A stretch of 64,000 nt of DNA, taken from positions 992,001 to 1,056,000 of the forward strand of contig NZ_FSRU01000002.1 of the NCBI RefSeq assembly GCF_900142845.1, written 5' to 3'. Each line of letters opens with the position of its first letter. Position 1 is the stretch's first letter. This document shows positions 17,196 to 43,100 of this stretch, piece after piece. Both the position numbers and the translations under genes were made by a program. The notes under the pieces are model-generated. The model made no database searches and had not been told where the DNA came from. It saw only the letters and a program-made list of their open reading frames with translations. The stretch is from Paraburkholderia phenazinium (GTDB lineage Bacteria > Pseudomonadota > Gammaproteobacteria > Burkholderiales > Burkholderiaceae).

Positions 17196-17647
17196 GCGCA
17201 GACTCCTAACTTCGCTTCGGCATCGATACGGGACAGATGCCATGACCAGCGCTCGACCCCTTCGCTGATGCTGCGGTGCGTGACCCGATAGGCCTCGGCC
17301 CCCTTCCTGTACGGATCGCCGATGTCGGACTCCTTGAGCAGACGGAACACCCGCCCGCGCGCCGCGGGATGGCGGTGCTCGATCACCCGCTTTTGACGCT
17401 CGCTCATCACGAGCACCGGCCAGGACGCTTCGATCATCCACGAGAAAAGCGGCTGCGAGCGGTGCTCGCCGAGATGGAGTCCTTCGGACTCCAGTAACTC
17501 GACTACGCGAGGGTCCGCACGCATGCCGTGTACGGCGTCGATCCCCGCGGACAGCACCCGTGCCTCGGGAAGCGCCTGCTTGAACAGCGCCTCGGCCATC
17601 GGGCTGCGGCACACGTTCGCAGTACAAATCACCAGAATGGTATTCAT
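17192..17647 (-). CDS. wzb: Wzb-type low-molecular-weight protein tyrosine phosphatase
   Basis: 151 residues, normal length for the family. The P-loop is CTANVCRS near the N-terminus (Cys9 nucleophile, Arg15), with Asp in the acid loop SDIGDPYRKG near residue 115. It should dephosphorylate the tyrosine tail of the adjacent Wzc kinase so that its oligomers cycle during polymer export (established for Wzb/Wzc and BceD/BceF). The ATG overlaps the wza stop by one base (TGATG) and the stop overlaps the wzc start. Confidence 0.94.
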   Translation of the reverse strand: MNTILVICTANVCRSPMAEALFKQALPEARVLSAGIDAVHGMRADPRVVELLESEGLHLGEHRSQPLFSWMIEASWPVLVMSERQKRVIEHRHPAARGRVFRLLKESDIGDPYRKGAEAYRVTHRSISEGVERWSWHLSRIDAEAKLGVCA

Positions 17648-18852
17648 CAGTAAGCTATGCTCCGGCCGGTAGCCAGGGTCTGGGCGCTCGGCAAGAACAT
17701 GCCGACCACCCGGCTCCAGCGAACAAGGGATGAGGCGTCGACGAACACCACATCGTTCGCCTGTAATTCGAAGTTATTCGCCAGCGCCATGGCCGCCGGC
17801 GAGGTGGCATCCAGATGAAACACGGTTGGCTTGCCCGCTTTCGGGCTGCGCACGACGTACACCTGGCTCGCATCGCCCGAGTAGGGGCTGATGCCGCCGG
17901 CGTCGCCCAGCGCCTCGTTGAGCGTGAGGCGGCCGTTGTTCAACGTGAGCGTCGAGGTATGCCCCACTTCGCCGAGTACGAATACCTTGCTGTCGTTCTG
18001 GGAGAAGACCCGCACCAGATCGCCGTCGCGCAGGATGATGTTGTCGGGATTGATGCCCTGCTCGATCATGCTCGCGAGGTTGACCACGACCGTCTTGTCG
18101 CCGCGCGTCACGGCCACGACGGAGCGATCGCCTTGCGGCGTGAAGCCGCCCGCACGGTTGATCGCCTCGGGCAAGCTCATGGGGAGGTCGTTCATGACCT
18201 GCAATCCCGGGACCCGAATCTCGCCGTCCAGGTAGATGCGCTTGCTGCGGTAGGCCTGAATGCGCAGCGTCACTTGCGGATTGCGGATGTATCGTCCGAG
18301 CTGCTTCGCCAGCAGGTCGCGCGCCTCCATTTCCGTCAGGCCGCTGAGTTTGAGCGCGCCGACATACGCGAATTGCACAAAGCCGCTCGAATCGATCGTG
18401 TAGCCCGACACCACCGCGTTGGAGCCGGATGTGTCGATCCCCGTGGGCGTGCTGACCGTAGGCATATTGAGTTCCGGGTGGTCCCAGACGATGATGCTCA
18501 GCACGTCACCGGGGCCAAGGGCATACGGACCCGGCTTGGCAAACAGGTCCTGCACATCCTTCGGAATGCCTGGCACCGCCGCGGCCTGTTCGTCCGCAAT
18601 CAGGTTGCTGTTGATTTCCACCATCGCGCCGGCTGGCGGTGCGTCGCTCGCGGCCGTCGTATCGGCGCTCGCACCGGTGGTGGCGGAGGTTCTGCCGGAC
18701 GTGCCGTGAGCCAGCGCCGCCGCGGCCTGCCCATCGCCGCCCGCTGCCCTGAAGGTCATGCCGGGCGCGAACGTGCAGCCGGACAACAGCGCGGCGAGTA
18801 GCACGAAAGCTGAAAATCGCATCTTTCGCAATTCGGATTGTTTACGTAACAT
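17647..18852 (-). CDS. wza: Wza-type outer-membrane polysaccharide export lipoprotein
   Basis: 401 residues. The signal peptide ends in a lipobox (LLSGC, Cys26 if started at 18852). The poly-export domain (YALGPGDVLSIIVWDHPEL, about residue 110) is followed by SLBB-type beta-grasp repeats (RIYLDGEIRVPG; VFVLGEVGHTS). The C-terminal segment would form the amphipathic outer-membrane helix barrel. A Thr/Ala-rich linker follows the lipobox. It is the first gene of the main EPS operon. An internal ATG at 18822 also gives a clean lipoprotein signal, so the start is uncertain by ten codons; neither has a strong Shine-Dalgarno. The sequence TTACGTAAC covers the first codons (see findings). Confidence 0.93.
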   Translation of the reverse strand: MLRKQSELRKMRFSAFVLLAALLSGCTFAPGMTFRAAGGDGQAAAALAHGTSGRTSATTGASADTTAASDAPPAGAMVEINSNLIADEQAAAVPGIPKDVQDLFAKPGPYALGPGDVLSIIVWDHPELNMPTVSTPTGIDTSGSNAVVSGYTIDSSGFVQFAYVGALKLSGLTEMEARDLLAKQLGRYIRNPQVTLRIQAYRSKRIYLDGEIRVPGLQVMNDLPMSLPEAINRAGGFTPQGDRSVVAVTRGDKTVVVNLASMIEQGINPDNIILRDGDLVRVFSQNDSKVFVLGEVGHTSTLTLNNGRLTLNEALGDAGGISPYSGDASQVYVVRSPKAGKPTVFHLDATSPAAMALANNFELQANDVVFVDASSLVRWSRVVGMFLPSAQTLATGRSIAY

Positions 18853-18943
18853 CGCTTCTGGCCCATTAGTATCAGTGGCGGGACATCAACAGGCACTGCC
18901 GACCCCGCCTTTTTAAACGCTCTTCCGGTCACCACACTTCCGT

Positions 18944-18959
18944 TGGCTTGCCGGCCGCT
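18944..18959 (+). promoter_or_regulatory. Weak sigma-54-like promoter candidate
   Basis: TGGCTTGCCGGCCGCT keeps the GG-N10-GC geometry of an RpoN promoter but misses the CAC of the -24 box and the TT of the -12 box. It points at the small exported-protein gene that starts 27 bases downstream. TTACGTAAC, the core of the presumed activator site, lies 94 bases upstream. Much weaker than the three sites listed for manC, yjbH and the EAL gene. Confidence 0.3.
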
Positions 18960-18986
18960 CCGTACTCCAAACTTCTTCGCCTCGAC

Positions 18987-19373
18987 ATGAGAAGACTTGC
19001 TCGCCTCACCGCCGTCCTGGCTTCGTTCACGGCTTTCACTGCCACTGCACAATCCCCGCAATCCGGCGCCGCTCATCCGGACGCGGCCAGTCATACCGAG
19101 GCACGCTCCCAGATCGAAGCCATGACGCCACATCCCGCTTCAGGCGCGGATCACGCCGCTGCCGCTTCGGGCGTCGCCGCCAAACCACGCGATCCGTATG
19201 CGGTCAGTTCAGGTAAGCCACTCACCAACCGCCAGAAGCTCGCCCGCTTCCGCAACACACACACCGACAGCACCGCAGCAAAGAACAGCGACGATCCCTA
19301 CCAATACAACGGGTGGGACAGCAAGGCGATCTACACCAGCCCTGCCTCGCCCGATTCGACCACCGCTCACTAA
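18987..19373 (+). CDS. Small exported protein of unknown function inside the EPS locus
   Basis: 128 residues from ATG 18987, chosen because it gives a complete Sec signal (MRRLARLTAVLASFTAFTATA, cleavage before QSPQ). The mature protein is Ala/His/Ser-rich and looks disordered. Near the C-terminus is a short ordered motif (TNRQKLARFRNTHTDST, then DDPYQYNGWDSKAIYTSP). I do not recognise a family. It is the only plus-strand gene in the EPS block, placed between wza and the initiating transferase, both on the minus strand. It may be an accessory periplasmic factor or simply an insertion. Confidence 0.65.
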   Translation: MRRLARLTAVLASFTAFTATAQSPQSGAAHPDAASHTEARSQIEAMTPHPASGADHAAAASGVAAKPRDPYAVSSGKPLTNRQKLARFRNTHTDSTAAKNSDDPYQYNGWDSKAIYTSPASPDSTTAH

Positions 19374-19468
19374 CCGCTCACTAACCGGTCGATCGGCAGC
19401 GCCGCTTGCCGGTCGAACCGTTAGCGCCCGAATGGACGCGGGTATCGGCTCACACCGGCGTCAATGGT

Positions 19469-20548
19469 TCAGTAAGCCCCTTCACGCCGCATCACGACGC
19501 CAACCGTCTTCACCAGAATCGCCACATCCTGCGAGAGCGACCAGCGCTGCACATACGACACGTCGAGCGACACACGCTTTGCGTAGTCCACATCGTTGCG
19601 TCCGCTCACCTGCCATAAACCCGTGATGCCCGGCTTCGCCATCAGGTAATAGCGAACGTCGTGGCCGTAGCGCTCCAGTTCCTGCTCCACGACTGGACGC
19701 GGGCCGACGAGGCTCATTTCGCCGCGCAGGACGTTCCAGAGCTGCGGCAGTTCGTCGAGACTCGTGCGCCGCAAAAAGCGGCCGATCGCGGTCACGCGGA
19801 TGTCGTTTCTCAGCTTGAAGTCTTGCGCCCACTCGGCGCGGGCCTCCGGGTCGTTGGCGAGCAATTCCTTCAGGACGACGTCCGCATTCACCACCATCGT
19901 TCTGAATTTCAAACAGCGGAATTTGCGCCCGTGCCGACCGATGCGCTCATGCCCGAAGGTGATCGGACCGCCGTCGCGCCGCACCTGCAAGGCAACGACC
20001 GCAAACAGCGGCGACAACGCCAGCAGCAGCGACACGGCGCAGAGCACGTCGAAACCGCGCTTCACCGCGCGTCGAACCGAACCCGCGGCGGTCGAATCGT
20101 CGGCGAGCGATGCGGTGTGCGCGCCGATGCCCTGCAACGCGGCACGGTGCGCGCGCTTGCCGATACGCCAGAACAAGGTAAGTACCGCGAGGGCGAGCGT
20201 GCGGGCGATCAGCAGGCCGAGTCCGCTGGTAATGGTCCAGTAAAGGAACCACAGGCGCGAGACGAGATGCGCACGATGCAGGACATACAGCAGCACGAAA
20301 CCGCAGGCCTGAACCAGCAGCCACGCGAGAATCGTCCGGCTCATCATGTTCAGAAGCGACTGCGTGCGCGGCGGCCGATAGGTACCGCAGGCGGGAAATA
20401 CCGATAAGGCCAGCGCGACGGCGAACGCCACGAGCGAGCCGTCGAAGCCCAGCAGCCTCCCAGTGTTTGCATCGTTGAGATGAAGCGCCCCCAAGGCGCC
20501 CAACACAATAAGCACGCCGTCCAGTACGCGTGTGATGATCCCCGACAT
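19469..20548 (-). CDS. Initiating undecaprenyl-phosphate sugar-1-phosphate transferase (short form)
   Basis: 359 residues. Four to five N-terminal membrane helices come first, then a catalytic bacterial sugar transferase domain (PF02397). This starts KRGFDVLCAVSLLLALSPL and carries KFRTMVVNAD, LRRTSLDELPQLWNVLRGEM, LVGPRP and KPGITGLWQVSGR. It loads the first sugar phosphate (usually glucose or galactose) on undecaprenyl phosphate. WcaJ/WbaP/BceB relatives are about 460 residues. Here the central Rossmann-like domain (PF13727) is almost absent, replaced by about 40 residues (GKRAHRAALQGIGAHTASLA). The start is ATG 20548 with GGGGG upstream; a TTG at 20575 is less likely. Confidence 0.88.
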   Translation of the reverse strand: MSGIITRVLDGVLIVLGALGALHLNDANTGRLLGFDGSLVAFAVALALSVFPACGTYRPPRTQSLLNMMSRTILAWLLVQACGFVLLYVLHRAHLVSRLWFLYWTITSGLGLLIARTLALAVLTLFWRIGKRAHRAALQGIGAHTASLADDSTAAGSVRRAVKRGFDVLCAVSLLLALSPLFAVVALQVRRDGGPITFGHERIGRHGRKFRCLKFRTMVVNADVVLKELLANDPEARAEWAQDFKLRNDIRVTAIGRFLRRTSLDELPQLWNVLRGEMSLVGPRPVVEQELERYGHDVRYYLMAKPGITGLWQVSGRNDVDYAKRVSLDVSYVQRWSLSQDVAILVKTVGVVMRREGAY

Positions 20549-20582
20549 TTTTTCTACCCCCGGTCCGCAACTCAATCCGATT

Positions 20583-20601
20583 GACTACTCAATGAGTAGT
20601 C
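20583..20601. promoter_or_regulatory. 19-bp perfect inverted repeat upstream of the initiating transferase
   Basis: GACTACTCA-A-TGAGTAGTC, two 9-bp arms around one base, 35-53 bases before the ATG at 20548. This is long enough to be an operator for a dimeric regulator. It overlaps AGGACTACTCATTGAG (20588-20603, minus), which has sigma-54-like spacing but carries A in place of the invariant C of the -12 GC. A repressor or attenuation role is possible. Confidence 0.5.
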
Positions 20602-20741
20602 CTTATCTGGTCATGCATTGTTTTGATCAGTCGTTTTATTCTTCAGCTATGCGGCCGCTGCTTTAACGATCAAGCGTCGCCAGCGCGGCGTTTTCATTGT
20701 CTTCAAAGCCCATCTGAGCGTGCCGTTCCGCACGGTTGCGC

Positions 20742-20751
20742 GTTACGTAAC
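20742..20751. promoter_or_regulatory. GTTACGTAAC palindrome (candidate activator site)
   Basis: Perfect 10-bp palindrome identical to the one upstream of the yjbH promoter (26200-26209). It lies 139 bp before a degenerate sigma-54-like element (20588-20603) of the initiating transferase gene, a spacing close to the 126-130 bp seen at the three stronger promoters. Confidence 0.55.
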
Positions 20752-20909
20752 ACGCATGACGCGTCACGTTCCACCGCATCGTCCACTACGCCTGGAAGAA
20801 CCACTGGGAACACCCTCTGGCGTGGGCTTCAGCGCTATCTTGCGTGTTGCTGCAACGGTGTGCCGCCAGGTCCACCGCACTATTAAGCAAAGAACAAGCC
20901 AGCGGGATG

Positions 20910-22475
20910 CTATGAACGGCCGTAGTGATCTTCGAAACGTTGGATGTCGTCTTCGCCCAGATAGGAACCCGACTGAATTTCGATCAGCTCGAGCGACAGC
21001 TTCCCCGGGTTGACCAGTCGATGCCTGACGCCAAGCGGGATGTAGGTGGATTCGTTCTCGCTCAACAGGAACGTCTCTTCACCGCGCGTGACGAGCGCTG
21101 TCCCGCGCACGACGATCCAGTGTTCCGCGCGGTGATGATGCATTTGCAGGGACAGCGAGGCGCCTGGACGAACGACGATCCGTTTGACCTGATAGCGCTC
21201 GCCGTTATCCACCGACTCATACGTGCCCCACGGCCGATGGACCTTGCGATGCGTGTCGGCCTCCGGACATTGCTTCGCCTTCAGTTGCGCAACGAGACCC
21301 TTGACGTGCTGCACGGCGTCTCTCGCCACCACCAGCACAGCGTCCGCGGTTTCGACCACCACCAGATCGCGCGTCCCCACACAGGCCACGAGCCGCCCTT
21401 CGGCATGAACGAACGTCGATGCCGCGCGCTCCATCACCACCTGACCACGGGTCCCGTTGCCGGCTGCGTCTTTGGGCAGCGCATTCGCCACCGCATCCCA
21501 CGAGCCGACATCGGACCAGCCGGCATCGAGCGGAATCACAACGGTGGGCACATCGTTCTTCAGATTGCCGATCTTTTCCATGACGGCGTAGTCAATCGAA
21601 TCGGCCGGCGAGGCGGCGAAGGCAAGCGGGTCGAGCCGGCAAAACTCGCCATCCATGGTCAGGCCTTCGACTGCCTGCGTGCACGCAGCGAAGATGGCAG
21701 GCTGGAGTTCACCGATCGCAGCGAGCCAGGTGGTTGCCCGGACAACATAGATGCCGCTGTTCCACCAATGCGTGCCGCTCGCCACATAGCGTTGCGCCAG
21801 TTCGATGCCCGGCTTTTCGACAAAGCCGCCGAGCCTGAAACCACCGAACGCGCTCATGGGCTCGCCGATCTTCAGGTAGCCGTAAGCGGTCTCGGCATGC
21901 GTCGGCACTACGCCCAGCGTCGCGATGCTGCCTTGCGCCGCATAGTGGGTCGCCGCGCTTAGCGCACGACGAAACGCGGCTGCGTCGCCCACGGCGTGAT
22001 CGGCCGGCATCACCACCATGATCGAATCGCGCCCCTCGTGCCTGAGCATGAGCGCTGCTGCCGTCAGCGCCGCAGCGGTATCGCGGCGCGCCGGTTCAAG
22101 GACGATTTGCGCCGCCACGCCCACATCGCGCAACTGATGGGCGGTGATGAAACGCTGCGCTTCTCCGCATACCACCAGCATGCGCTTCGCAGCCGGAAAA
22201 CCGGTGTCGAGCCCCTCGATGTGGGAGACCGTTTGTTGCAGAAGGGACTCGGTCTTTAGCAGTCCGATTAACTGCTTCGGGTACTGTTCACGGGACAACG
22301 GCCACAGGCGGGTACCCGATCCGCCGGCAAGGATCACGGCACAGACGTCGGTGTCGAGTTCAGTGGATGCGGGCTGTCCATCGTCTACCGCCGGAGCGTA
22401 TGCCGTCGCTTCGGCGCTACTCCATGGCGCATCCATGACGTCGCCGTCAATCACGCTTTGGTCTTTGAGATCCAT
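20910..22475 (-). CDS. manC: Bifunctional mannose-1-phosphate guanylyltransferase / mannose-6-phosphate isomerase
   Basis: 521 residues of the XanB/AlgA/BceA type, which supplies GDP-mannose. The N-terminal nucleotidyltransferase has LAGGSGTRLWPLSREQYPKQ from about residue 49 and FVEKPG in the active site. The C-terminal cupin (type II phosphomannose isomerase) has QMHHHRAEHWIVVRG, with metal-binding histidines near residue 443. A roughly 40-residue acidic N-terminal extension precedes the catalytic fold and is unusual. The start is ATG 22475, because GGGGAAG sits 7 bases upstream; the GTG at 22481 would be one base from it. Its sigma-54 promoter is listed separately. Confidence 0.95.
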   Translation of the reverse strand: MDLKDQSVIDGDVMDAPWSSAEATAYAPAVDDGQPASTELDTDVCAVILAGGSGTRLWPLSREQYPKQLIGLLKTESLLQQTVSHIEGLDTGFPAAKRMLVVCGEAQRFITAHQLRDVGVAAQIVLEPARRDTAAALTAAALMLRHEGRDSIMVVMPADHAVGDAAAFRRALSAATHYAAQGSIATLGVVPTHAETAYGYLKIGEPMSAFGGFRLGGFVEKPGIELAQRYVASGTHWWNSGIYVVRATTWLAAIGELQPAIFAACTQAVEGLTMDGEFCRLDPLAFAASPADSIDYAVMEKIGNLKNDVPTVVIPLDAGWSDVGSWDAVANALPKDAAGNGTRGQVVMERAASTFVHAEGRLVACVGTRDLVVVETADAVLVVARDAVQHVKGLVAQLKAKQCPEADTHRKVHRPWGTYESVDNGERYQVKRIVVRPGASLSLQMHHHRAEHWIVVRGTALVTRGEETFLLSENESTYIPLGVRHRLVNPGKLSLELIEIQSGSYLGEDDIQRFEDHYGRS

Positions 22476-22523
22476 GATCACGCTTCCCCGTGTTTATAGT
22501 GCTTCCCGTCTGCGCAACGTCAT

Positions 22524-22539
22524 TGCACATCCCGTGCCA
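22524..22539 (-). promoter_or_regulatory. Sigma-54 promoter of manC
   Basis: TGGCACGGGATGTGCA on the minus strand matches the RpoN consensus TGGCACG-N4-TTGCW at every fixed position but one (G for T at position 12). GG and GC are 10 bases apart. Transcription would start near 22513 and give a leader of about 38 bases with the GGGGAAG ribosome site. GTTACG half-sites lie 128-156 bases upstream. Confidence 0.8.
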
Positions 22540-22666
22540 ATCGGGCCCTCGACGCGGAGCTTTTTCGCGGCGCAACAAAAAAGCCTTTCCAAACAAGTAT
22601 TTCCGCTTTTCCAGGGACCTCTCGGCACGCGCAAATGACTGCGGGTCAAGCCTCGGGAAGCCAGGA

Positions 22667-22695
22667 TGTTACGTAGCGTGGCCTATGGTGTTACG
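22667..22695. promoter_or_regulatory. Paired TGTTACG sites upstream of the manC sigma-54 promoter
   Basis: TGTTACGTAGC starts at 22667 and TGTTACGCAC at 22689. They are two direct copies 22 bases apart, so on the same face of the helix. The nearer one is 128 bases from the promoter. The first is a one-mismatch copy of GTTACGTAAC. Candidate enhancer-binding-protein site. Confidence 0.6.
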
Positions 22696-22821
22696 CACAA
22701 TAGGAACACCGAAAACACGCTCGCCGCAGGCGCCGCACATCGCGTACAGGCGAGTGAACGCCTGGCCGCGGCACGACGCCCGCCATTCCCCTAAAGACCG
22801 GCCCGCGTTGCCCGAATGAGG

Positions 22822-23547
22822 CTAGGTGCCGCTCGTCCCGCCGGTACCGCCAGTCGCGGCCCCTGTTCCGCTGGATCCGCTGCTCGATGGATTGCCCACT
22901 GCAGCCCCCGCGGCAATGGCAGCGTTAACCAGCGCCGTCGACGGCTGACCATTGCTGCCGATCGCCCCTGCTGCCAGCAGCGCGTCCAGATCCGCATCCG
23001 CGCCAGGCTGTCCTGGCGTAAACGAAGTCGTCAGAAACGCGTTCGTCGAAAGCGTCACGCCGTACATGCTCTGCAGCAGCTTCGCGACACCGTTCTCGGC
23101 GTTGGCGATCAGCGTGCTGTTGGTCACCGCGTTCTGGTACGTCGCGTTCGTGGCAATGCCGGCGATCAGGCCGTCCACCGTGGTGCCCAGTTCGCCGGCC
23201 AGATAGCTCAACAGCAACTGCGTCAGCGGCGTCACATTGAACGTTCCCGAACCGGAGGCAAACGAATTGATGGTGATCGAGCCGTTCGTGGCAGTGATCG
23301 AACACGGGCCGTCAAACTTGAACGAGGCCGTATACGCGCCGTTGGCATTGGCCGTGGTGCTGCCCGAGCCGTTCTTGCAAGTCAGCTGGATGGACGCATT
23401 GGCCAGTGCGGCGCCGACCGCCGCGGTGCCGCTAACGGTACCCGTCGCCAACCCGCCACCGCCGCCACACGCCATCAGCGCACTGGTTGCGAGCGCAACG
23501 GATCCCAGCTGCAAGCTGCGCAGCGAGGCTGTATTAAGAAGCTTCAT
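22822..23547 (-). CDS. Gly/Ala/Ser-rich lipoprotein downstream of yjbH
   Basis: 241 residues. The signal peptide ends in the lipobox LMAC (Cys27), followed by a Gly run (CGGGGG). The mature part starts like a carboxypeptidase-regulatory or Ig-like domain (GTVSGTAAVGAALANASIQL, then a paired-Cys segment LTCKNGSG...DGPCSI). A helical Ala/Asn-rich segment follows and the tail is Gly/Ser/Thr-rich. The start is ATG 23547 with GGAG upstream; the frame extends ten codons further without support. It lies 20 bases after the yjbH stop, so very likely co-transcribed. An outer-membrane partner of the YjbH barrel is plausible but unproven. Confidence 0.75.
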   Translation of the reverse strand: MKLLNTASLRSLQLGSVALATSALMACGGGGGLATGTVSGTAAVGAALANASIQLTCKNGSGSTTANANGAYTASFKFDGPCSITATNGSITINSFASGSGTFNVTPLTQLLLSYLAGELGTTVDGLIAGIATNATYQNAVTNSTLIANAENGVAKLLQSMYGVTLSTNAFLTTSFTPGQPGADADLDALLAAGAIGSNGQPSTALVNAAIAAGAAVGNPSSSGSSGTGAATGGTGGTSGT

Positions 23548-23567
23548 CGATTTTCTCCTGGAGGACG

Positions 23568-25964
23568 TCACTGACAATTGACAGGCGGATGTGCCTGTCC
23601 CTCGCTTACACCTTGTGAACGGGTATCGCAGGCAGCCGGCTCGCGCGCCGCGGATATCGTCGGATCGAGCGTCTGCGCATGGGGTTGTGGCTGTGGCAGC
23701 GGCGCTTCATCGTCAGGCCGCGCGTAACGCACATAGGCGTCGCGCATCCTGTAGAGCTGCGTGGCGAAGTACTCCGCGCTAAAGCGGCCCTCGTTCAGGA
23801 CATTTTCTTGCGTGCTATACGGGAAATCGACGTTCTCCGCCGCGACGGTATTCAGATAGTTCCGCGAATTGACACGCGTGCGGAAGTCGAGCGCAAACTG
23901 CCCCGTTCCATCCAGCTGGGTGATGCCCGGCTTCATGCCCTGGCGCGGCGTAAGCGGGAAGCTGATGGCCGCGCCGACGAAGCTGCCTTCGCCGCTATGC
24001 TCGGCCGACACGCTCACCGACACGTCGTCGAACCAGCGCGTCAGCGTGATCAACGGTCCCTTGTCGCCGTCGACATACCGCGCGACGCCCGCCTCGACCC
24101 ACATATTCCAGGCAGGCTGAACCCACCGGTACGTCAGCACCGCATTCTTCTCGTTCGGCAACGCCTCGTGGCCCGGCTCCTGATGCAGATAGGCGAGCTG
24201 CAAGCGCACCAGGTCAGGCCGTCCGGGGACGAAGACGGTGGTCTCGTTCTCGATGCCGAGGTAGTCGTAATCGAATTTCCCCACCGCCGCGACGTTGAAC
24301 ACTTGCGGCATGATCCAGAAGCTCTGGGCCAGCGCTGCGCTCGACAAGCCGCCGCGCAGGCGGTATTCGCTAAAGACGCGGCCGTCGTCCATGTTCTTCG
24401 TGTTGTAGACCGGTGCGATATAACTGCCGTACAGTTCCGCGCCGCGCCAAAGCGGTACGAAGCCTTCGATGGCTGCGCCGAGCGAAAAGTCGAAATTGCC
24501 GTACTCGGTGCCGTACAGGTAGCTTGTCACCGGCTTGATCTGGATGCGCGAGAGGCCATGGCTTCGCTCATCGCCGTACCAGGCGATCGAATCGGCGTCG
24601 TAGGTGGGACGTAAGTGCATCGTCAACGATCCGCCGGCAAGGCCGGAGGCACCACCCGCCATGAATTGCGCGTACGCTTCGCGATCGACGCTGACTTCCG
24701 CAATCGGCAGGTCCGCCTTCTTGATCACCGCGCGAATCCGCTCGATGCCGTGCGGCGCGTTGACGCTTGCGACGCCCAGCACAATGCCGAGCGCGTCCGC
24801 TTCGTTCTGGTTATAGCGGTGGTTTTCGTATTCGACGATCAGATCGCGCCCGCTGACGCCGACCCGAACACGCTCGAGTCCAGCACCCACCAGTTGGTGC
24901 GCAATGCTCTCCAGCGCGGACGTATCCAGCGCTTGCGGTACGGCCGGCGCAGCCGCGCCCGGCACCGCGGGCGGCGCCTCGCTGACCACCACCGAGGCGT
25001 AAGACTGCAGCGCGGGCACATAGGTAATCGCTGCGCCTGCGAGGCCCTTGCCGTCGGCAACGTCGACGGCGTCCGTGCTCGTCATGTAGACCGGCGGCAG
25101 GTTGCGCAGCGCGATGGCGTGCACGTCGCTCCCATCGCTTGCAGTCGCCGCCGCACCGCTTGAATTGTCCTTGCACAGCGGGTCCGCACAACGCTGCGGA
25201 CTGAACCGCTTGCCCAACGGAATCTGCACGCCAATCGAAACGGACGCACGCGGCGACACGCCGTCCGTCTTCCGCACCGATCCCATCAAGGTACCCACGA
25301 AGCTCGCGTCGGCGAGCCAACTGATTGCCGGGGACTGGTAGCGAACGCCCGCATAAGGCGTCTTCGCATCGTCTTCGGCCAGCAGCGACAGCCCCGTATT
25401 CCAGAGGGCCAACTGCGCGCCGCCAAACACCCCGTCCAGGCGATCGCCTTGCCCGTACCCCACCGTCAGTGTGGCCGGCCCGAATGCCTGCGATACCACG
25501 CCGTACTTCGAACGAAAGAAATGCGACTGCCCGCCCACGTCCGTCACGCCGAAGGCAATATCCGGCTGGTACTGGAAAAACTGCGGCACCTCGACTTTGA
25601 CGTCGGCCATCAGGTGACGAAAGATGAAGTGATCGGCGCCGGTAAACGGCGCCGGCACATTGCCCGGGTAATTCGCGAGGCCGCCCGACACCTCCACATA
25701 GGGAAACAGGCCAAACGCCCCCCAGTAGATCTGCGAGCCCGTTGCCTCTTTCCCATAGCGGGGATCGAGGTAGTCGTTGTACTGCACTTCCCCGACACCG
25801 GACGGCAACGTGAAGCCGTACGGAATGACCAGACCGCCAGCCTGACCGAGTGCGTTGAGGGCCGGGTCCACTGCGTGTGCCGAGGCGGAGAAGACTAAGG
25901 CCACGCCTAGCGCAATCGCCCCGGGTGATAACTGTGGTTGTTGTGCAGGCAGTTTTCTGAGCAT
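23568..25964 (-). CDS. yjbH: YjbH-like outer-membrane beta-barrel protein for EPS export
   Basis: 798 residues, matching the large YjbH family (PF06082). A signal peptide (about residues 1-31, ending SAHA-VDP) is followed by the typical N-terminal barrel (GQAGGLVIPYGFTLPSGVGE, then DYLDPRYGK). A central domain of about 150 residues resembles OmpA/POTRA-like alternation (LIVEYENHRYNQNEADALG). A second barrel ends with strands rich in aromatic and alternating residues. In other bacteria yjbEFGH makes or exports an EPS; here yjbH is alone with a lipoprotein. A sigma-54 promoter lies about 95 bases upstream of the ATG. Confidence 0.88.
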   Translation of the reverse strand: MLRKLPAQQPQLSPGAIALGVALVFSASAHAVDPALNALGQAGGLVIPYGFTLPSGVGEVQYNDYLDPRYGKEATGSQIYWGAFGLFPYVEVSGGLANYPGNVPAPFTGADHFIFRHLMADVKVEVPQFFQYQPDIAFGVTDVGGQSHFFRSKYGVVSQAFGPATLTVGYGQGDRLDGVFGGAQLALWNTGLSLLAEDDAKTPYAGVRYQSPAISWLADASFVGTLMGSVRKTDGVSPRASVSIGVQIPLGKRFSPQRCADPLCKDNSSGAAATASDGSDVHAIALRNLPPVYMTSTDAVDVADGKGLAGAAITYVPALQSYASVVVSEAPPAVPGAAAPAVPQALDTSALESIAHQLVGAGLERVRVGVSGRDLIVEYENHRYNQNEADALGIVLGVASVNAPHGIERIRAVIKKADLPIAEVSVDREAYAQFMAGGASGLAGGSLTMHLRPTYDADSIAWYGDERSHGLSRIQIKPVTSYLYGTEYGNFDFSLGAAIEGFVPLWRGAELYGSYIAPVYNTKNMDDGRVFSEYRLRGGLSSAALAQSFWIMPQVFNVAAVGKFDYDYLGIENETTVFVPGRPDLVRLQLAYLHQEPGHEALPNEKNAVLTYRWVQPAWNMWVEAGVARYVDGDKGPLITLTRWFDDVSVSVSAEHSGEGSFVGAAISFPLTPRQGMKPGITQLDGTGQFALDFRTRVNSRNYLNTVAAENVDFPYSTQENVLNEGRFSAEYFATQLYRMRDAYVRYARPDDEAPLPQPQPHAQTLDPTISAAREPAACDTRSQGVSEGQAHPPVNCQ

Positions 25965-26058
25965 TTTTCTAATGTCGAGTGCGTCGTGGCACGTTGCCGT
26001 AGGACAATCGTTCGTAGTCCTTCTTTTTATAACCCATGGTGCAGCGCGCCATTTTCAA

Positions 26059-26074
26059 AGCAGCAAGTGTGCCA
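26059..26074 (-). promoter_or_regulatory. Sigma-54 promoter of yjbH
   Basis: TGGCACACTTGCTGCT on the minus strand has a complete TGGCAC -24 box and TGCT -12 box with GG-N10-GC spacing. Position 12 is C instead of T. The start site would be near 26048, giving a leader of about 84 bases to the ATG at 25964. GTTACGTAAC lies 126 bases upstream. Confidence 0.75.
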
Positions 26075-26199
26075 GGCACCTCGCTTCTGCACAAAGCGAG
26101 TTCCGCGCTTCAAAAGGCCTTTTAAAACGACGCACGCCACCCACACACGTCTACCGTGTGGCCGAACCACGCCTGATCACGCGAAAATTGCACTGCCCC

Positions 26200-26221
26200 G
26201 TTACGTAACGCCGTCCGTAAC
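26200..26221. promoter_or_regulatory. GTTACGTAAC palindrome plus half-site upstream of yjbH
   Basis: GTTACGTAAC at 26200-26209 is followed by a third half-site CGTAAC at 26216-26221. The palindrome edge is 126 bases upstream of the yjbH sigma-54 promoter. Same word as at 20742-20751. Confidence 0.65.
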
Positions 26222-26256
26222 AGATAGAGACGGGAACGACTCTCGACGCGGTGGCG

Positions 26257-27114
26257 TCACCCCAGTAAGCCACCTAACGTCCGCACCGCCCGCGAATAGA
26301 AACTCCCCTGCGCCAGCACCCCGTGCCACTGCCGCAGCCACTGCGCCTGCTCCCCGGTCTCGACTCCGCTCACCACCACCCTCACATCCAATGCCTCAAA
26401 CAACGCCAGCAAGCCTTCGACAACCTTGCACGAACGCGGATCGCCGGGTACGGCCGCCAACAGTTCGCGCGCCAGCTTGACCGTGTCGATATGAAGCGTC
26501 CCCAGGCCGGCGAGCGAGGCCTGTCCCGCGCCGAACTCGCCATACGACATCCCCACGCCCAGATCCCTGAGACCCTCGGTGAGCGAGCGAACCGACAGCA
26601 CGCGCGCCGCATCCTCGCTTTCAGGTAGCTCCAGCTCGAGCAGATTCGGTGCAACGCCATAAGACTGCGCGATCTCCCGGACGTCCCGCGCGAAACCCTC
26701 GGACATCGCCACAGAGGGACACACGCCGATCGACACAGGGCACGGCTCCAGTCCTTGCCCAAGGCACACACTCAACTCGTGACACGCGCGCTCAACCACG
26801 AAGACACTCATGTGATACGCCACCTCGGACTGCTCGAGTTGCGGCATAAAAACGCCGGGCAGCAACAGCCCATACTGCGGATGCATCCAGCGCACCTGCG
26901 CTTCGGCCCGCGACAAGCGTCCCGTGCCGACCTGATAGACACCCTGGAACATCACATGAAACTCGCCTGCGTGCAGCCCTTGAGAGATGCGATCGCCCAG
27001 ACCGTCGCCTATGTGTCCATCGGTCATCTGACTCTTCTGCTCACCTAAGACTGCGATTGCAAAGACGCCATTGCGCTGACGCTCCGGCTGGTTCCAGATC
27101 TGATTAGCCTGCAT
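26257..27114 (-). CDS. Degenerate EAL-domain protein
   Basis: 285 residues, a single EAL (c-di-GMP phosphodiesterase) fold with no sensory or membrane domain. Several catalytic residues are gone. The EAL signature reads Glu71-Ala-Gln (SRAEAQVRW). The DDFGTG loop is Gly192-Glu193 in YGEFGAG. The Glu of the AEGVET motif is Ser249 (VVSGVET). Glu162/Glu165 (ELPES) and the Asp of LHID are kept. Such proteins usually act as c-di-GMP receptors or protein-binding modules, not enzymes (FimX, LapD and YdiV are precedents). Its own sigma-54 promoter and the EPS context suggest a regulatory role in polymer production. Loss of c-di-GMP binding is also possible. Confidence 0.85.
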   Translation of the reverse strand: MQANQIWNQPERQRNGVFAIAVLGEQKSQMTDGHIGDGLGDRISQGLHAGEFHVMFQGVYQVGTGRLSRAEAQVRWMHPQYGLLLPGVFMPQLEQSEVAYHMSVFVVERACHELSVCLGQGLEPCPVSIGVCPSVAMSEGFARDVREIAQSYGVAPNLLELELPESEDAARVLSVRSLTEGLRDLGVGMSYGEFGAGQASLAGLGTLHIDTVKLARELLAAVPGDPRSCKVVEGLLALFEALDVRVVVSGVETGEQAQWLRQWHGVLAQGSFYSRAVRTLGGLLG

Positions 27115-27151
27115 GGGTCTGCCTTCTCACAATGCCAAACAGACGTCTGAA

Positions 27152-27167
27152 AGCGAATTGCGTGCCA
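27152..27167 (-). promoter_or_regulatory. Sigma-54 promoter of the degenerate EAL gene
   Basis: TGGCACGCAATTCGCT on the minus strand matches TGGCACG-N4-TTGCW except C at position 13. Expected start near 27141, a leader of about 27 bases to the ATG at 27114. Three GTTACG copies lie 130 bases upstream. Confidence 0.75.
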
Positions 27168-27296
27168 GTGTGTCGGGCGGCCGGATCACAGGGTTCGTCG
27201 ATCGCCCAAAGCCTTTTCCGAACAGGGGCTTAGCGTTCTCGCAGGGGCATGACCGGGGACGGGTCGAGCGCGTCGAAGGACGCGCCAGAGGGCGCT

Positions 27297-27325
27297 GTTA
27301 CGTCGCGCACGTTACGTGCGTTACG
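27297..27325. promoter_or_regulatory. Triple GTTACG cluster upstream of the EAL gene
   Basis: GTTACG occurs at 27297-27302, 27311-27316 and 27320-27325, all in the same direction. The near edge is 130 bases from the sigma-54 promoter. The cluster overlaps the 3' end of the DUF4096 gene. Candidate enhancer-binding-protein site. Confidence 0.6.
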
Positions 27326-27635
27326 CTCGCCCGTCGCCGCACTGGCGGGTGCCGAGAAGCTCGATCGCCCGCTCTAGTGCGCCCGAACGGCGCCACGCGA
27401 TGTAGCGGGCGTAGCAGGTCTGCTGCGGCGGGAAACTGGCGGGAAGACGGTGCCATTTTTCGCCGCTCTGCTGGATCCAGAGAATGGCATCGAGAATCTC
27501 GCGCGGCGCGCGGCGAGGTCTCCCACGCGGTGACTGAGGCTCGCGAAACAGATGCTCGACGTGCATCCATGCGTCATCGGACAAGGGAATTTTGATCACG
27601 GGATTCGGCGAATGAAATAGATGGTGCAGACTCAA
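27321..27635 (-). CDS. Stand-alone DUF4096 (IS5-type transposase N-terminal domain) protein
   Basis: 104 residues covering only the N-terminal helix-turn-helix domain (PF13340) of IS5-family transposases: LSDDAWMHVEHLFREP, GRPRRAPREILDAILWIQQS, GEKWHRLPASFPP, YARYIAWRRSGALERAIELL. No DDE catalytic domain follows, and I see no inverted repeats or target duplication around it. This suggests a domesticated DNA-binding protein, not a recent remnant. The start is TTG at 27635 with GGGG closely upstream; no earlier ATG exists. It lies upstream of the EAL gene on the same strand and its 3' end overlaps the GTTACG cluster. Confidence 0.75.
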   Translation of the reverse strand: MSLHHLFHSPNPVIKIPLSDDAWMHVEHLFREPQSPRGRPRRAPREILDAILWIQQSGEKWHRLPASFPPQQTCYARYIAWRRSGALERAIELLGTRQCGDGRA

Positions 27636-37110: not shown

Positions 37111-40100
37111 CTAGCCGCCCGGCTGCCCGAGCGTCACCGTGACGCTGTGATGCGCGCCGTCGTCCACCAGTTGCACCGAGTGCTCCCCAGCATCAAGCGC
37201 TCTACCGTCCACGATCATCTCGCTCACACCCCGACCTGCTCCATGCGGATTGTTCACGACGATGTCGTAGCGTGAAGCCCCATGGCGGAATACGGCGCTA
37301 AAGCCGGGCCAGGCACGCGGCACACAGGGGTCGATCGACAGTGCATTGCCGTGCTTGCGCATGCCGAGCACACCTTCGATTCCGGCGCGATACATCCATC
37401 CCGCCGAACCCGTATACCAGGTCCACCCGCCGCGTCCGACGTGCGGCGCGACCGAGTACACGTCGGCAGCGACCACATAAGGTTCGACCTTGTAGCGGTT
37501 CGCCCCGCTGCGCGTGCGGCTGCGATTGACCGGATTGAGCATCGCAAACAGTTCGGCGGCGCGATCGCCATCGCCCATTTGCGCCAGCGCCAGCACCGAC
37601 CACATGGCGGCATGCGTGTACTGGCCGCCATTCTCGCGAATGCCCGGCGGATAACCCTTGATGTACCCCGGATCGAGCGGCGAGCGATCGAACGGCGGCG
37701 TGAACAGCAACGCGAGGCCGTCGTCGCGGCGAATCAGCCGGGTATCGAGCGCAGCCATCGCCTGTGCGGCCCGTGCAGTATTCGCCACGCCCGACAACAC
37801 GCTCCACGACTGGGCAATCGCGTCGATTTTGCATTCCTCGCTCAAGGCGGATCCGAGCGGCGTGCCGTCGTCGAAATAGGCGCGCCGGTACCATTCGCCG
37901 TCCCATCCCGCCGTTTCGAGTGCTGTGCGCAGCGCCTCGGCACGCAGCAGCCAGCGTTCGGCCCTCGCGCCGTCGCCACGCGCTCGCGCGAGCGGCGCCC
38001 ATGCCGCCAGCGTGGCGCACAGCAACCAGCCGAGCCAGACGCTCTCGCCACGGCCCGCCTCGCCCACCCGGTTCATGCCGTCGTTCCAGTCGCCCGTGCC
38101 CATCAACGGCAGGCCGCGCTCGCCGAATAGCGCAAGGCTTTGCTCAAGCGCACGCACGCCATGCTCGAAGAGCGACGCGCTGCTCTCTGAAACGGCCGGC
38201 ACGAAGTAGGCATCATGCTCGCCGTCGCTCAGCGGACGGCCGTCGAGAAACGGCACGTCGACGTCCAGAATCGCCGCGTCGCCGCTCGCATCCACATAGT
38301 GCGCCACCGTATAGGCCAGCCACGCGCGGTCGTCGGAAATGTGGGTGCGCACGCCCGCGCCGCCTTGCGGCAGCCACCAGTGCTGCACGTCGCCCTCCGG
38401 AAACTGCCGGGCGGCCGCCCGCAACAGATGCTCGCGTGTCAGTTCGGGACGCGCCACGACGAGCGCCATGCCGTCCTGCAACTGATCGCGGAACCCGTAC
38501 GCGCCGCTGGCCTGATAAAAGCCCGCACGCGCCCAGATCCGGCACACGAGCGTCTGGTACAACAACCAGCGGTTGAGCATCAGGTCCATGGTCCGATCGG
38601 GCGTCACGACCTGGACCGCGCCGAGCGTGTCGTCCCAGAACGCCGTCACCGCCGCGAGTACCGCGTCGAGGTCGGCGTCGCGATAGCGCTCGACCAACTG
38701 CCGGGCGGCCTCGGTCGAGGCCGCTTCGCCCAGCACGAACACCACTTCGGCGATGCCGCCCGGTTCCAGTTCGAGCGTGGTCTGCAAGGCCGCGCACGGA
38801 TCGAGTCCCGCTCCGACCTTGCCTGACAATGGCGCGTCGTCATCGGCGGCGGCCAGTCCGGCGGGATAGTGCAAGCTGCCGTTACGGCCGATGAACTCGC
38901 ACCGGTCCGCGCTCCAGGTGGTCTGCTTGCCGCCCAGGTCCGCAAAGGCCACGCGCCCTCGATACGCTTCGGCCCAGCCGTTGCGGACGAACATGGCCCG
39001 CGTCTGCACGTCGATTTCGCTGATGGTGTAAGGCGCTGCCGTACTGCGCGACGCCCCCAGCGCCCATTCGACGTACGCCGTCACCGAAAGCCGGCGCGTG
39101 CGTCCGGACAGATTGCGCAGCGTCAGACGCGAAATCTTCAGCGGGTCGTCGAGCGGCACGAATTGCAGCAGGTCGAGCGCGATGTCTTCCGCGGTGTGCG
39201 TGAAGCGGCTGTACCCCTGGCCGTGACGCGCGATGTAGGGCGCGGCACCCGGAGCGTTGTCGCGCACAGGGTTGGCCTGCGGTCCCCACAGCGCGCCCGT
39301 ATCGTCGTCGCGCACGTAAAACGCCTCGGCTGGTGGATCGCCGACCGGATCGTTCGACCATGGTGTCAATTGATGCTCGCGGCTGTTCGACGCCCACGTG
39401 TAGCCGCTGCCCTCGGCCGACACCAGGAAGCCGCAAACCGGATTGGCGATCACGTTGACCCACGGCATCGGCGTGCATTGGCCGGCCGCGAGAATGGTGA
39501 CGTATTCGCGGCCGTCGTCCGCAAAGCCGCCCAGACCGTTGAAGCACTCCAGCCCAGCACCGGGCGCTGCGGTTTTCACGGCAGCGGGCAGCGGCAGCGC
39601 GCTCAGCAAACGCCGCGCGCGCGGCTGGCCAGGCGGCGGCGTGCTGACGAGGCGCCGCAACTGATCCAGCAGGCGCCCGTTGCGCGCGGCCAGCACGGCA
39701 CGCGCTGCAACCGGAAACAGCGCCCGCGCGTCGGCGGACATGAGGTCGGCGCGCAGCACAAAAATGCTGCCGCGCGCGGCGCCGCCCGCCTGCTGGGACG
39801 GTTGCGCCTCGCCGGAACGCACGAGCGTTTCGAGCGCAGCCTGCAAATCCTGCACATACGACGCGGCGCGTTCGTTGATGATGACGAGATCCACCGCCAG
39901 CCGCTTCATATGCCAGTACTCGTGCGCATGCACCAGTTGCCGCACCAGCGCCATGTGTTCGATATCGTCGATGCGCACCAGCAGGATCGGCAGATCGCCC
40001 GACACACCATGCGCCCAGAGCGGCGCGGCGCCCACGCCGCCCGCTGCCGCCACCGCGGCGACACCCCGCTGCAGCGCGAGCGAACCCGGCCGCAACGACG

Positions 40101-43100
40101 GGTCGCTGTACAGCATGTGACTGGCCATGCGCTGGAACAGTCCTGCCTCATCGGCACTCACACCGTTGTGGCGCAACTGCACCTGCGCCTGGGTCCATGC
40201 GAGCATCGCCGCGCGCGCAAACGAAGCGCCGTCGCGATGCTTGTCCACCAGATCCAGCAGTTGTGCGCGCGAATCGGCGACGATGGTCCAGAAGGCCACT
40301 CGTGCCGTCGCGCCCGGTTCGATACGCAACCGCTGGCGCATCGCGAAAGCCGCGTCGAGCACGACCCCTGCCGAGTTGCCGAGCGCGCGCTCATCCGCGA
40401 GACCTAGCGGCGAACGCACGCTACGGCCACGGCCGATAAACCGCGCGCGGTCCGTTTCCACTTCGAGCGCGCCGACGGTCTTGCCCTCGATCACCGCCAG
40501 ATGCGCAGCCCACACCTCGGGTTCGTCCGGCGCGCGGCGGCGCCGGGTCGCGAGGATCACCCCGCTCTGTGCCAGATACTCCGTCTCGACGAAGAGTTTG
40601 GAGAAAGCCGGATGCGCCTGATCGGCGGCGGGCGGCGCCAGCACGATCTCCGCATAGGAGGTGAACTCGATCACCCGAGCCCGTGGCCCCGAATTGGCCA
40701 CCGAGACCCGTCGCACTTCGGCATCGTCTTCGGCGGACACCACCACGTCGAGCAAGGTGGTCAGCGTGCCGTCGCGCCGCACGAACTCGGCGCGATCCTC
40801 GGTGAAGATCACCTCGTAGCTGTCGGGCACCACGCCCGTCGGTTGCCACGCGGCTGACCAGAACTCGCCGCTTTCGACGTCGCGCAGATACAGGTAGCTG
40901 CCCCAGTCGTCGCAGGTCGCATCCTCGCGCCAGCGGGTTACCGCCAGATCGCCACGGCGGCTGTAACCGGAGCCGGCCGAGGTGATCATCACCGCGTAAC
41001 GGCCGTTGCAGAGCAGATGGGTGGCAGGCGACGGCTCGCTGGCCGAGGTCAGGCGCCGCGCCGCCGCCGGCTCGACGCCGCGCAGCGGTCCGGTCGTGCG
41101 GTTCTCGTCGACCCGCAGATGGGCGACCGCCACCCTGCCCGGCATGCGCTCCTGCAACAACAGTTCGGTGGCCTGAATGGCCGGCTCGGCATGGAAGAAT
41201 TCGCGGATGCAACCGCCCAGCAGCGCGTTGGCGATCGAGACAATCGTCATGCCCTGATGATGCGCCATGAACGCTCGCACCACCGCCACCGTCTGCCCCT
41301 CGGGCACCCGGGAGGGCGTGTAATCGAGCGCCTCGTAAAAGCCGAAACGTCCGCAGGCGCCTGCCGCGCAGAGACGCTTCAGGTTATCGGTGGCTGCAGC
41401 GGGATCCACCATCGCGGCCAATGCGGTCGCATAGGGGGCAATCACCGCATCGTGACCAAGGCCGCGCTTCAGGCCGAGATCGGGAATGCCGAAGCTCGAG
41501 TATTGATAGGTAAACTCAAGATCGCGTGCGTTATAGGCCGACTCCGAGATGCCCCACGGCAAGCCGAGCGCGCGACCGTAACCCATCTGCCTGTGCACCA
41601 CGAGCCTGTTGGTTCGCGCAATCAGGCTGCTGGCCGGCGCACGCATCACCAGCGACGGCATCAGGTATTCGAACATCGAACCGGACCACGAAATCAGCGC
41701 GGCGCCGCCAGGCACCGGCGTCGCAATACGGCCGAGGCGGAACCAGTGACGCGCGGGGATATCGCCCTTGGCGATCGCTACGAAGCTGGCGAGCCTTGCC
41801 TCCGAGGCCAGCAGGTCGTAGCTGCTCGGATCGAGCCGGCCATCGGCGACCGCGTAGCCAATCGAAAGCAGATTGCGCACGGGGTCCAGCAGAAAGCCGA
41901 ATTCCATCGCATTGGCCATCGTCAACGCCGTATCGGCCAGGACCGTCAGCCGCTCGCGCAAGCTCGCAGGATGGTTCGCAGCGTTCGCGTCCTGTCCGCA
42001 TTGTTCCTTGCTGTGGCTGTGGATTGCCTGCTCCAGCGCGTCGACCCAGAACCGCACGTCGTCGGCGGAAGGGTTCTGATCCGGGCGGACTTCATCGACG
42101 AGTGCACGCGCAATATCAGCCACCGTGGCGGCAAGCAGCGTGATGGCCGGCCATGCCGGTGTAACGACGACGCCTTGCGCGCCGAAACCGCCTGCCGCCG
42201 GCGCGACTGCTGCTGCCGCAATCACATGCGGTTCGTCGGCAGGCACATCGACAAGCGCGGCCCGCAGTGCCGCCACAGCCTGATCGAACTCGTCGTGCAA
42301 CGCGAGGCGCGTGCGATCGACGTGACCCTGGCTCTCGCGCAGCGCGTCGCACAACAAACCCAGGTTGTCGCGGATGCCCGCCAACGCCACGTTGCAACGG
42401 CTTTGCGCGGACTGTGCCGCCCATGCGCGGCAGGCGTTACCCAGCGCAATCAGATGACCGGCGAGATTGCCGCTATCGACGGACGACACGTACTTCGGCT
42501 CCAGCGGCCGCAAATCCTGGGTGTCGTACCAGTTATAGAAATGGCCGCGAAAGCGTGCGAGGCGCTGCATCGCGGCGAGCGTCGTCTCCAGCCGCGCCAC
42601 GCTGTCCAGCGTGCTGGCCCAGCCGAATTCGCGCGCGCTGACGGTGGCGAGCAGATAGAGCCCGAGGTTGGTCGGCGAGGTCCGATGCGCGACGACCGGG
42701 CGCGGATCCTCCTGGAAATTGTCCGGCGGCAGCATCTGGTCGGCAGGCGTGACGAAGGTCTCGAAGAAGCGCCACGTGCGACGGGCATGGTGTCGCAGTT
42801 GCTGGGCGTTCTCAGGGCTGACGACCAGATCGCCGGCCGCCCGCGGTGCGCGACTCGACCAGTAAGCGAGCGCGGGCGAGGCGAGCCAGCCGGCCACGAA
42901 CGGCACCCCAAGCCACGCGCCGTGATGGCCGAAGCGCCACGCCACCACCGCGCTGGTTGCCGCGCCGAGCAGCGCAAGCGCCACGCCGGCGCGCATGCGC
43001 ACGAAAGTCGCAGCCAGCGTCAGCCGTTCGCGGGCACCGGCTTCGGCGGCCGTCGTCCATTCGAGCAGATGGCGGTGACTGACCACCACACGAAACAGCG

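Follow-up and report, generated by a model that had tools for sequence, protein, structure and literature searches.

Probable sigma-54-dependent regulation of biofilm matrix genes

BerB of Burkholderia cenocepacia is described as an activator of a polysaccharide pathway that depends on both RpoN and cyclic diguanylate (c-di-GMP) (PMC5552954). BerA (Bcam1349), a CRP/FNR-type protein, is reported to bind the bep promoters, and this binding is enhanced by c-di-GMP (PMC3584217). VpsR of Vibrio cholerae controls polysaccharide with c-di-GMP and is described as RpoN independent (PMC5552954). In the PrsK/PrsR system, which controls PEP-CTERM genes, a 17-nucleotide (nt) activator motif is reported ahead of the sigma-54 site of polysaccharide-linked matrix genes (PMC1569441, PMC9850573). 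The subject here is a 64,000-nt stretch of Paraburkholderia phenazinium DNA (the window), in which GTTACG half-sites and copies of the 10-base word GTTACGTAAC lie near sigma-54-like promoters of an exopolysaccharide locus. Sequence comparison indicates that the best reading of these boxes is as enhancers of a Paraburkholderia regulon for biofilm matrix and c-di-GMP. It is held with moderate confidence that they serve sigma-54 promoters and are read by a VpsR-type activator, most likely the orphan protein L009.

The locus resembles each of these systems in part. With BerB/RpoN it shares a TGGCAC-type sigma-54 promoter, a matrix polysaccharide and a c-di-GMP theme (PMC5552954), as well as an activator related to the BerB-type protein (60% for L010, 49% for L009); it differs in that several target classes, including genes for an EAL-domain protein, a second YcgR protein (ycgR2) and collagen-like proteins, carry the box directly. 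With VpsR it shares the PF20161 N-terminal domain, AAA+ domain and Fis-type helix-turn-helix found in L008, L009 and L010, but the promoters here are -24/-12-like and L009 keeps the GAFTGA motif. The PrsR model TIGR02915 is the best NCBIfam match for L009, L010 and the BerB-type protein, all of which fall below its cut-off (L009 scores 400.2 bits against 502.6 and so fails). The PrsR motif ends in TTTACA and is reported 32-92 nt from the promoter (PMC1569441), whereas the far edges of the GTWAC units described below lie, in the window, at 130-157 base pairs (bp), and PrsR has a receiver domain and a partner kinase where L009 has the VpsR domain. The PEP-CTERM system is the nearest architectural parallel. 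The box is of a known mechanistic kind, yet GTTACG/GTTACGTAAC is not described in the literature searched (open-licence papers, largely titles and the beginnings of abstracts), and the part of PMC9684580 that was consulted gives no site.

Boxes at the exopolysaccharide locus

The word GTTACGTAAC occurs exactly at 20742-20751 and 26200-26209 of the window, with one-mismatch copies at 18841 and 22668. These four matches at one mismatch or fewer compare with 0.46 expected, and none of 100 shuffled sequences reached four. A promoter with -24 (GG) and -12 (GC)-like elements is found near each of the four boxes considered here; three boxes lie upstream of their promoter and one lies downstream. A first-pass annotation made from the letters of the window had placed groups of GTTACG half-sites upstream of the manC, yjbH and EAL-gene promoters, and 2, 3 and 3 half-sites are indeed present 110-165 bp upstream of these promoters. 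Measured between a cluster's first base and the T of TGG, the distance is 129 bp (22668 to 22539), 126 bp (26200 to 26074) and 130 bp (27297 to 27167), in each case no more than 1 bp away from the value first given. The near-constant spacing that had been proposed holds for the window (126-130 bp) and not for its relatives, where it ranges over about 105-160 bp. Segments of 55 bp with at least two half-sites make up 0.35% of all such segments and 3.2% of intergenic ones, in a post hoc test that includes the sites themselves. Sigma-54 enhancers are expected 80-150 bp upstream, where these three boxes stand and the 20742 box does not.

27297..27325, strand unassigned: putative EAL-gene enhancer box with three GTTACG units (27297, 27311 and 27320), from the half-site scan
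27152..27167, minus strand: sigma-54-like promoter TGGCACGCAATTCGCT of the EAL gene, from a promoter-pattern match
26257..27114, minus strand: EAL-domain gene of the c-di-GMP phosphodiesterase type (Pfam PF00563)
26200..26221, strand unassigned: putative yjbH enhancer box, reading GTTACG-N6-GTTACGTAACG on the minus strand (half-sites 26200, 26204 and 26216), from the scan and the genus-wide consensus
26059..26074, minus strand: sigma-54-like promoter TGGCACACTTGCTGCT of yjbH, from a promoter-pattern match
23568..25964, minus strand: yjbH-type exopolysaccharide gene (Pfam PF06082)
22822..23547, minus strand: gene following yjbH, without a Pfam match
22668..22695, strand unassigned: putative manC enhancer box, GTTACGTAGC plus GTTACG with starts 22 bp apart (22668 and 22690)
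22524..22539, minus strand: sigma-54-like promoter TGGCACGGGATGTGCA of manC, identical in L035 and L036
20910..22481, minus strand: manC, mannose-1-phosphate guanylyltransferase/isomerase type (Pfam PF01050 and PF00483)
20886..20901, minus strand: sigma-54-like promoter TGGCTTGTTCTTTGCT that directly follows manC and is proposed to serve the initiating transferase (TGGCYYGTTCNTTGCT in the window, L035 and L036)
20742..20751, strand unassigned: leader copy of GTTACGTAAC without mismatch, situated some 150 bp downstream from the promoter at 20901
19469..20575, minus strand: initiating sugar transferase gene (Pfam PF02397)
17647..18852, minus strand: wza-type export gene (Pfam PF02563); TTTACGTAAC at 18841 overlaps its first codons

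The window corresponds to C2:992001-1056000 of an 8.53-Mb genome in three contigs, and in yjbH it comes closest, among named relatives, to Paraburkholderia phenazinium LMG 2247 (87%) and Burkholderia sp. 4M9327F10 (86%). The genes on the minus strand run in the order EAL gene, yjbH, a small conserved gene, manC, initiating transferase, wza, an open reading frame (ORF) that we take to be phosphatase-like, wzc and glycosyltransferases. The 18841 copy is not counted as a box because it shares sequence with the initial codons of the wza ORF; no -24/-12-like site was found for it, and it is probably coding or chance. Elsewhere, the minus strand of the window (37111-45816) encodes a protein of 2901 residues that contains glycosyl hydrolase 94 domains, presumably a cyclic beta-glucan synthase.

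Conservation in related loci

Among 48 yjbH loci, the whole gene order is present only in L035 (the locus of P. phenazinium LMG 2247) and L036, and both retain the manC, yjbH and EAL boxes together with their -24/-12-like sites. In the EAL box of these two loci, the units that come first on the minus strand stand 1 bp closer together, and the EAL promoter has the same position and a different -12 part. The 20742 box is likewise retained, with a conserved TGGCYYGTTCNTTGCT about 150 bp upstream, directly after manC; this arrangement implies a box that would act on the transferase from a downstream position. The exact copy that the first-pass annotation reported upstream of the initiating transferase is present and lies downstream of the likely 20901 minus-strand promoter. 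Such a downstream position is what the title of Jyot 2002 (cited in PMC5552954) reports for FleQ, although there the protein and the box are others. Half-sites and a sigma-54-like site occur upstream of yjbH in 10 of the 49 loci examined (the window included), and many of the others have a transferase gene directly upstream of yjbH. The paralogous yjbH of the same genome (C1:701531) has no half-site within 1.5 kb.

The survey was extended to 144 Paraburkholderia genomes. GTTACG-N6-GTTACGTAACG, a 23-bp box, has 28 matches at one mismatch or fewer in 27 genomes, 18 of them exact; many of the 28 loci are orthologous and hence are not independent events. A -24/-12-like site lies 128-154 bp from 24 of the boxes (22 downstream at 136-154 bp and 2 on the other side at 128 bp), and none reaches the threshold at L116, L135, L136 and L137; in G459 (L135), TTGGCATAGTTGCTGCT is present below it. 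Strong promoter-like sites around the 28 boxes number 25 at 90-150 bp and 9 at 180-240 bp, with 8 scattered to 1.1 kb. Behind the boxes are a transferase-yjbH operon, yjbH alone or, in G075 and G171, a gene for a repetitive secreted protein, which had no Pfam match in the one case scanned. A gapped pattern joining box and promoter gave 30 matches in 27 of the 144 genomes, compared with 10 for a reversed control added in this analysis.

Spacing within the box is also conserved. Two GTWAC units stand 17 bp apart 24 times in 24 polysaccharide- or collagen-type elements (4 of the 28 loci being left out of this count) and 27 times in 30 ycgR2 regions. When 19 loci are aligned, the box CGTTACGGGCGRYGTTACGTAACGRGCGCGTTACCG and the promoter-like ATTGGCATGCTTGCTGCTTTA are the main conserved islands and the intervening DNA diverges. 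The box could instead be bound by a helper, either a CRP/FNR-type protein of the kind of BerA, whose reported binding to promoters offers a precedent, or a nucleoid protein, with the true activator bound elsewhere. This is rather unlikely, given that the alignment keeps no long islands other than the box and the -24/-12 site and that the distance between these two agrees largely with the range of roughly 80-150 bp given for activators of sigma-54 (PMC5552954).

In 10 of the 28 loci (L113, L115, L117, L118, L125, L128, L129, L130, L138 and L140), another sigma-54-like site, mostly GGGCACATGGNTTGCT, points in the opposite direction and lies 113-221 bp away on the far side of the polysaccharide-operon box. 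A box placed between opposite-facing sites is perhaps one enhancer for divergent promoters.

Putative members of the regulon

The boxes of this genome are not confined to the exopolysaccharide locus. Of its 86 sites matching the 10-base word within one mismatch, 51 among the matches listed were examined, the overlapping C2:249429/249434 being used once. Nine strong promoter-like sites face away from these boxes within 430 bp, seven of them at 104-142 bp. Two of the seven belong to the window itself, and four of the other five lead to genes for a YcgR-type protein (PilZN and PilZ domains), a bacterial-collagen protein, an FkbH-domain protein and a small protein without a Pfam match; the strong site at the C2:249429 box faces no assignable gene. 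No promoter-like site occurs within some 350 bp of the exact copy at C2:3606025, and the exact copy at C2:280299 lies within a gene. At the collagen locus (L250:355-5421), two tandem bacterial-collagen genes and then a ShlB/FhaC-type secretion gene follow a GTWAC box. The ycgR paralogue ycgR2 (59-84% identity class) is present in 43 of the 144 genomes, and in all 30 of the upstream regions examined from these 43, at least two GTWAC units stand 90-160 bp from a promoter-like site. In G471, ycgR2 also has the box.

Candidate activators

The genome encodes 14 proteins with a strong match to the sigma-54 activator domain (five weak matches were set aside), and a Pfam scan of all 14 places the VpsR domain only in L008, L009 and L010. 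L009 is an orphan encoded at C1:1893795-1895234 that matches PF20161, PF00158 and PF02954 above cut-off and contains GAFTGA. An operon that includes a C39 peptidase, and that we take to be Fap-like, is bordered by L010 and L008. Between L010 and this operon lies a sigma-54-like promoter, and in 8 of 11 genomes (L141:14983-15700, L195-L204) the palindrome CGTTTC-N6-GAAACG stands exactly 92 bp upstream of it; GTTACG/CGTAAC is absent from the stretch read in 9 of the 11 loci. L010 is disfavoured as the binder of the GTWAC box, since it adjoins this different palindrome. L008 is disfavoured as well, being missing from the box-bearing genomes G451 and G411, where L010 and its CGTTTC box remain. Since L010 sits beside another box and L008 is missing from these genomes, L009 is left among the VpsR-type proteins.

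Orthologues of L009 (E <= 1e-150, identities of 61% or more) were found in 94 of the 144 genomes. They are present in 42 of the 43 genomes with ycgR2 (Fisher p = 7e-9) and in all 23 with a polysaccharide-operon box (Fisher p = 2e-5), values that carry no correction for shared ancestry. L009 is the best candidate activator in these comparisons, though it is not demonstrated, and other paralogues may read the box elsewhere.

The box could also belong to an orthologue of BerB, itself an activator dependent on RpoN and c-di-GMP. Promoters of the berA type, located by the published 20-base promoter at two mismatches or fewer, occur in 47 of 398 genomes of the family, and 30 of these loci were examined (L083-L112). 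All 30 carry the near-palindrome GTGTCCRRAAATGMGAC with its near edge 75-77 bp upstream of the -24 box, and none carries GTTACG/CGTAAC within 220 bp; at the one locus checked, an ORF 190 bp on resembles a CRP/FNR-type protein by eye. GTGTCCRRAAATGMGAC is a likely BerB site. GTTACG is absent from these promoters and is therefore not BerB's box, as far as the berA promoter shows. BerB was rejected as the binder on this basis, and the BerB-type protein is moreover closer to L010 (60%) than to L009 (49%), which makes an orthologue of BerB a very unlikely reader of the box.

Weighing the evidence

Several observations speak against enhancers read by L009, and the first of these concern abundance. 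Genome-wide, the 10-base word has 6 exact copies and its reversed form 9, and at one mismatch or fewer the counts are 86 and 237. The 23-bp box fares no better, with 42 matches for the reversed word (a control added in this analysis) against 28, and a looser search gave 35 matches in 31 of the 144 genomes and more for its reversed control. Abundance is for this reason not the argument for the 23-bp box. Sigma-54-like matches at two mismatches or fewer are also no more frequent in the window than in shuffled sequence (82 compared with 81.9). What is unusual is the joint position of box and promoter and its conservation, not the abundance of either word. Chance or coding coincidence would account for these counts and for the 18841 copy that overlaps coding sequence; it would not account for a position at enhancer distance that, the 18841 copy excepted, is kept in many genomes and several gene classes, and it is extremely improbable. 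The same evidence bears on what had been claimed for the element as a whole. In the two whole-locus genomes the orthologues of manC, yjbH and the EAL gene have kept their upstream boxes, and boxes recur at enhancer distance elsewhere, so that they are not scattered at random, even though the word itself is not over-abundant. An enhancer role agrees with conservation at sigma-54-like promoters, and the apparent regulon is wider than the locus to which it had been assigned. That one activator would read all of the boxes is a plausible hypothesis.

A second group of observations concerns L009 itself. It is present in 27 of the 35 genomes with any match from the 23-bp box search or the gapped search (Fisher p = 0.11), the latter adding the L009-bearing genomes G411 and G201; among the 30 judged real, after G406, G095, G150, G434 and G461 were dropped, the count is 25 (Fisher p = 0.03). 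No orthologue at E <= 1e-150 was found in G075, G171, G398, G427 and G183, all with convincing boxes and promoters, and no nameable gene lies downstream of the box loci in G398, G427 and G183. G471 carries ycgR2 and the box, and L009 was not found there. No consistent box precedes L009 in 30 upstream loci, and autoregulation was rejected on that account. In tblastn searches L009 is not linked to any box. With four activators as queries, these searches found no activator gene in the 48 yjbH loci (10-kb flanks where the contig allowed), at the 28 loci L113-L140 (1.5-kb flanks) or, in three genomes, about 19 kb to either side. Additionally, in G315 (L204) the promoter next to L010 is preceded at 97 bp by a GTTACG/CGTAAC half-site, which suggests that the specificity of L010 may not be clean.

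The co-occurrence analysis covered the VpsR-type activators. The other 11 of the 14 activators, which are without a VpsR domain, lie outside it, and sigma-54 enhancers read by one of these (NtrC, L007/L012/L018 or L015, for example) are the alternative that draws most from this. GCAC-N5-7-GTGC is an NtrC consensus, and two stretches of this type lie near the EAL promoter (window 27297-27355; far edges at 152 and 185 bp), one of them overlapping the GTTACG cluster. The 250 bp upstream of manC and of yjbH contain no such stretch, and none occurs at the EAL gene in L035 and L036. NtrC is reported to control the exopolysaccharide cepacian in B. cenocepacia (PMC5491218), but a regulon of polysaccharide, PilZ, EAL and matrix-protein genes would fit a VpsR- or BerB-like activator better. 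A reader outside the VpsR class is considered unlikely, while still carrying some weight.

Proposed mechanism and wider implications

The boxes, the promoter-like sites, their spacing and conservation and the genes behind them can be read directly in the DNA, and a mechanism built on a VpsR-type activator may be proposed from them. A hexamer-forming activator of this type would bind GTWAC pentamers, usually two at 17-bp spacing and often with one unit inside a GTWACGTWAC pair, at a box about 105-160 bp from a -24/-12 promoter. DNA looping and ATP hydrolysis would then open the promoters, if the promoter-like sites work as such. The predicted targets are polysaccharide operons (manC, yjbH and the transferase), the EAL gene, the second YcgR/PilZ gene and collagen-like proteins. 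In this genome the activator would most likely be the orphan L009, which is probably responsive to c-di-GMP.

A broader reading, offered tentatively and as a real possibility, is that Paraburkholderia and Burkholderia have expanded VpsR-type c-di-GMP activators into paralogues with enhancer words of their own: CGTTTC-N6-GAAACG for L010, GTGTC-N7-GAGAC for BerB (berA) and GTWAC for L009. Through sigma-54, each paralogue would control its own share of the biofilm matrix, and the GTWAC box would mark a sessility regulon spanning the genus, in which polysaccharide, collagen-like protein, an EAL enzyme and a dedicated YcgR brake are coupled. The box would serve as a readable signature for an undescribed regulon in a large genus whose members live in soil and with plants. 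It allows a specific prediction about the orphan activator L009 and points to the genes for matrix, c-di-GMP and the motility brake that may be switched jointly.

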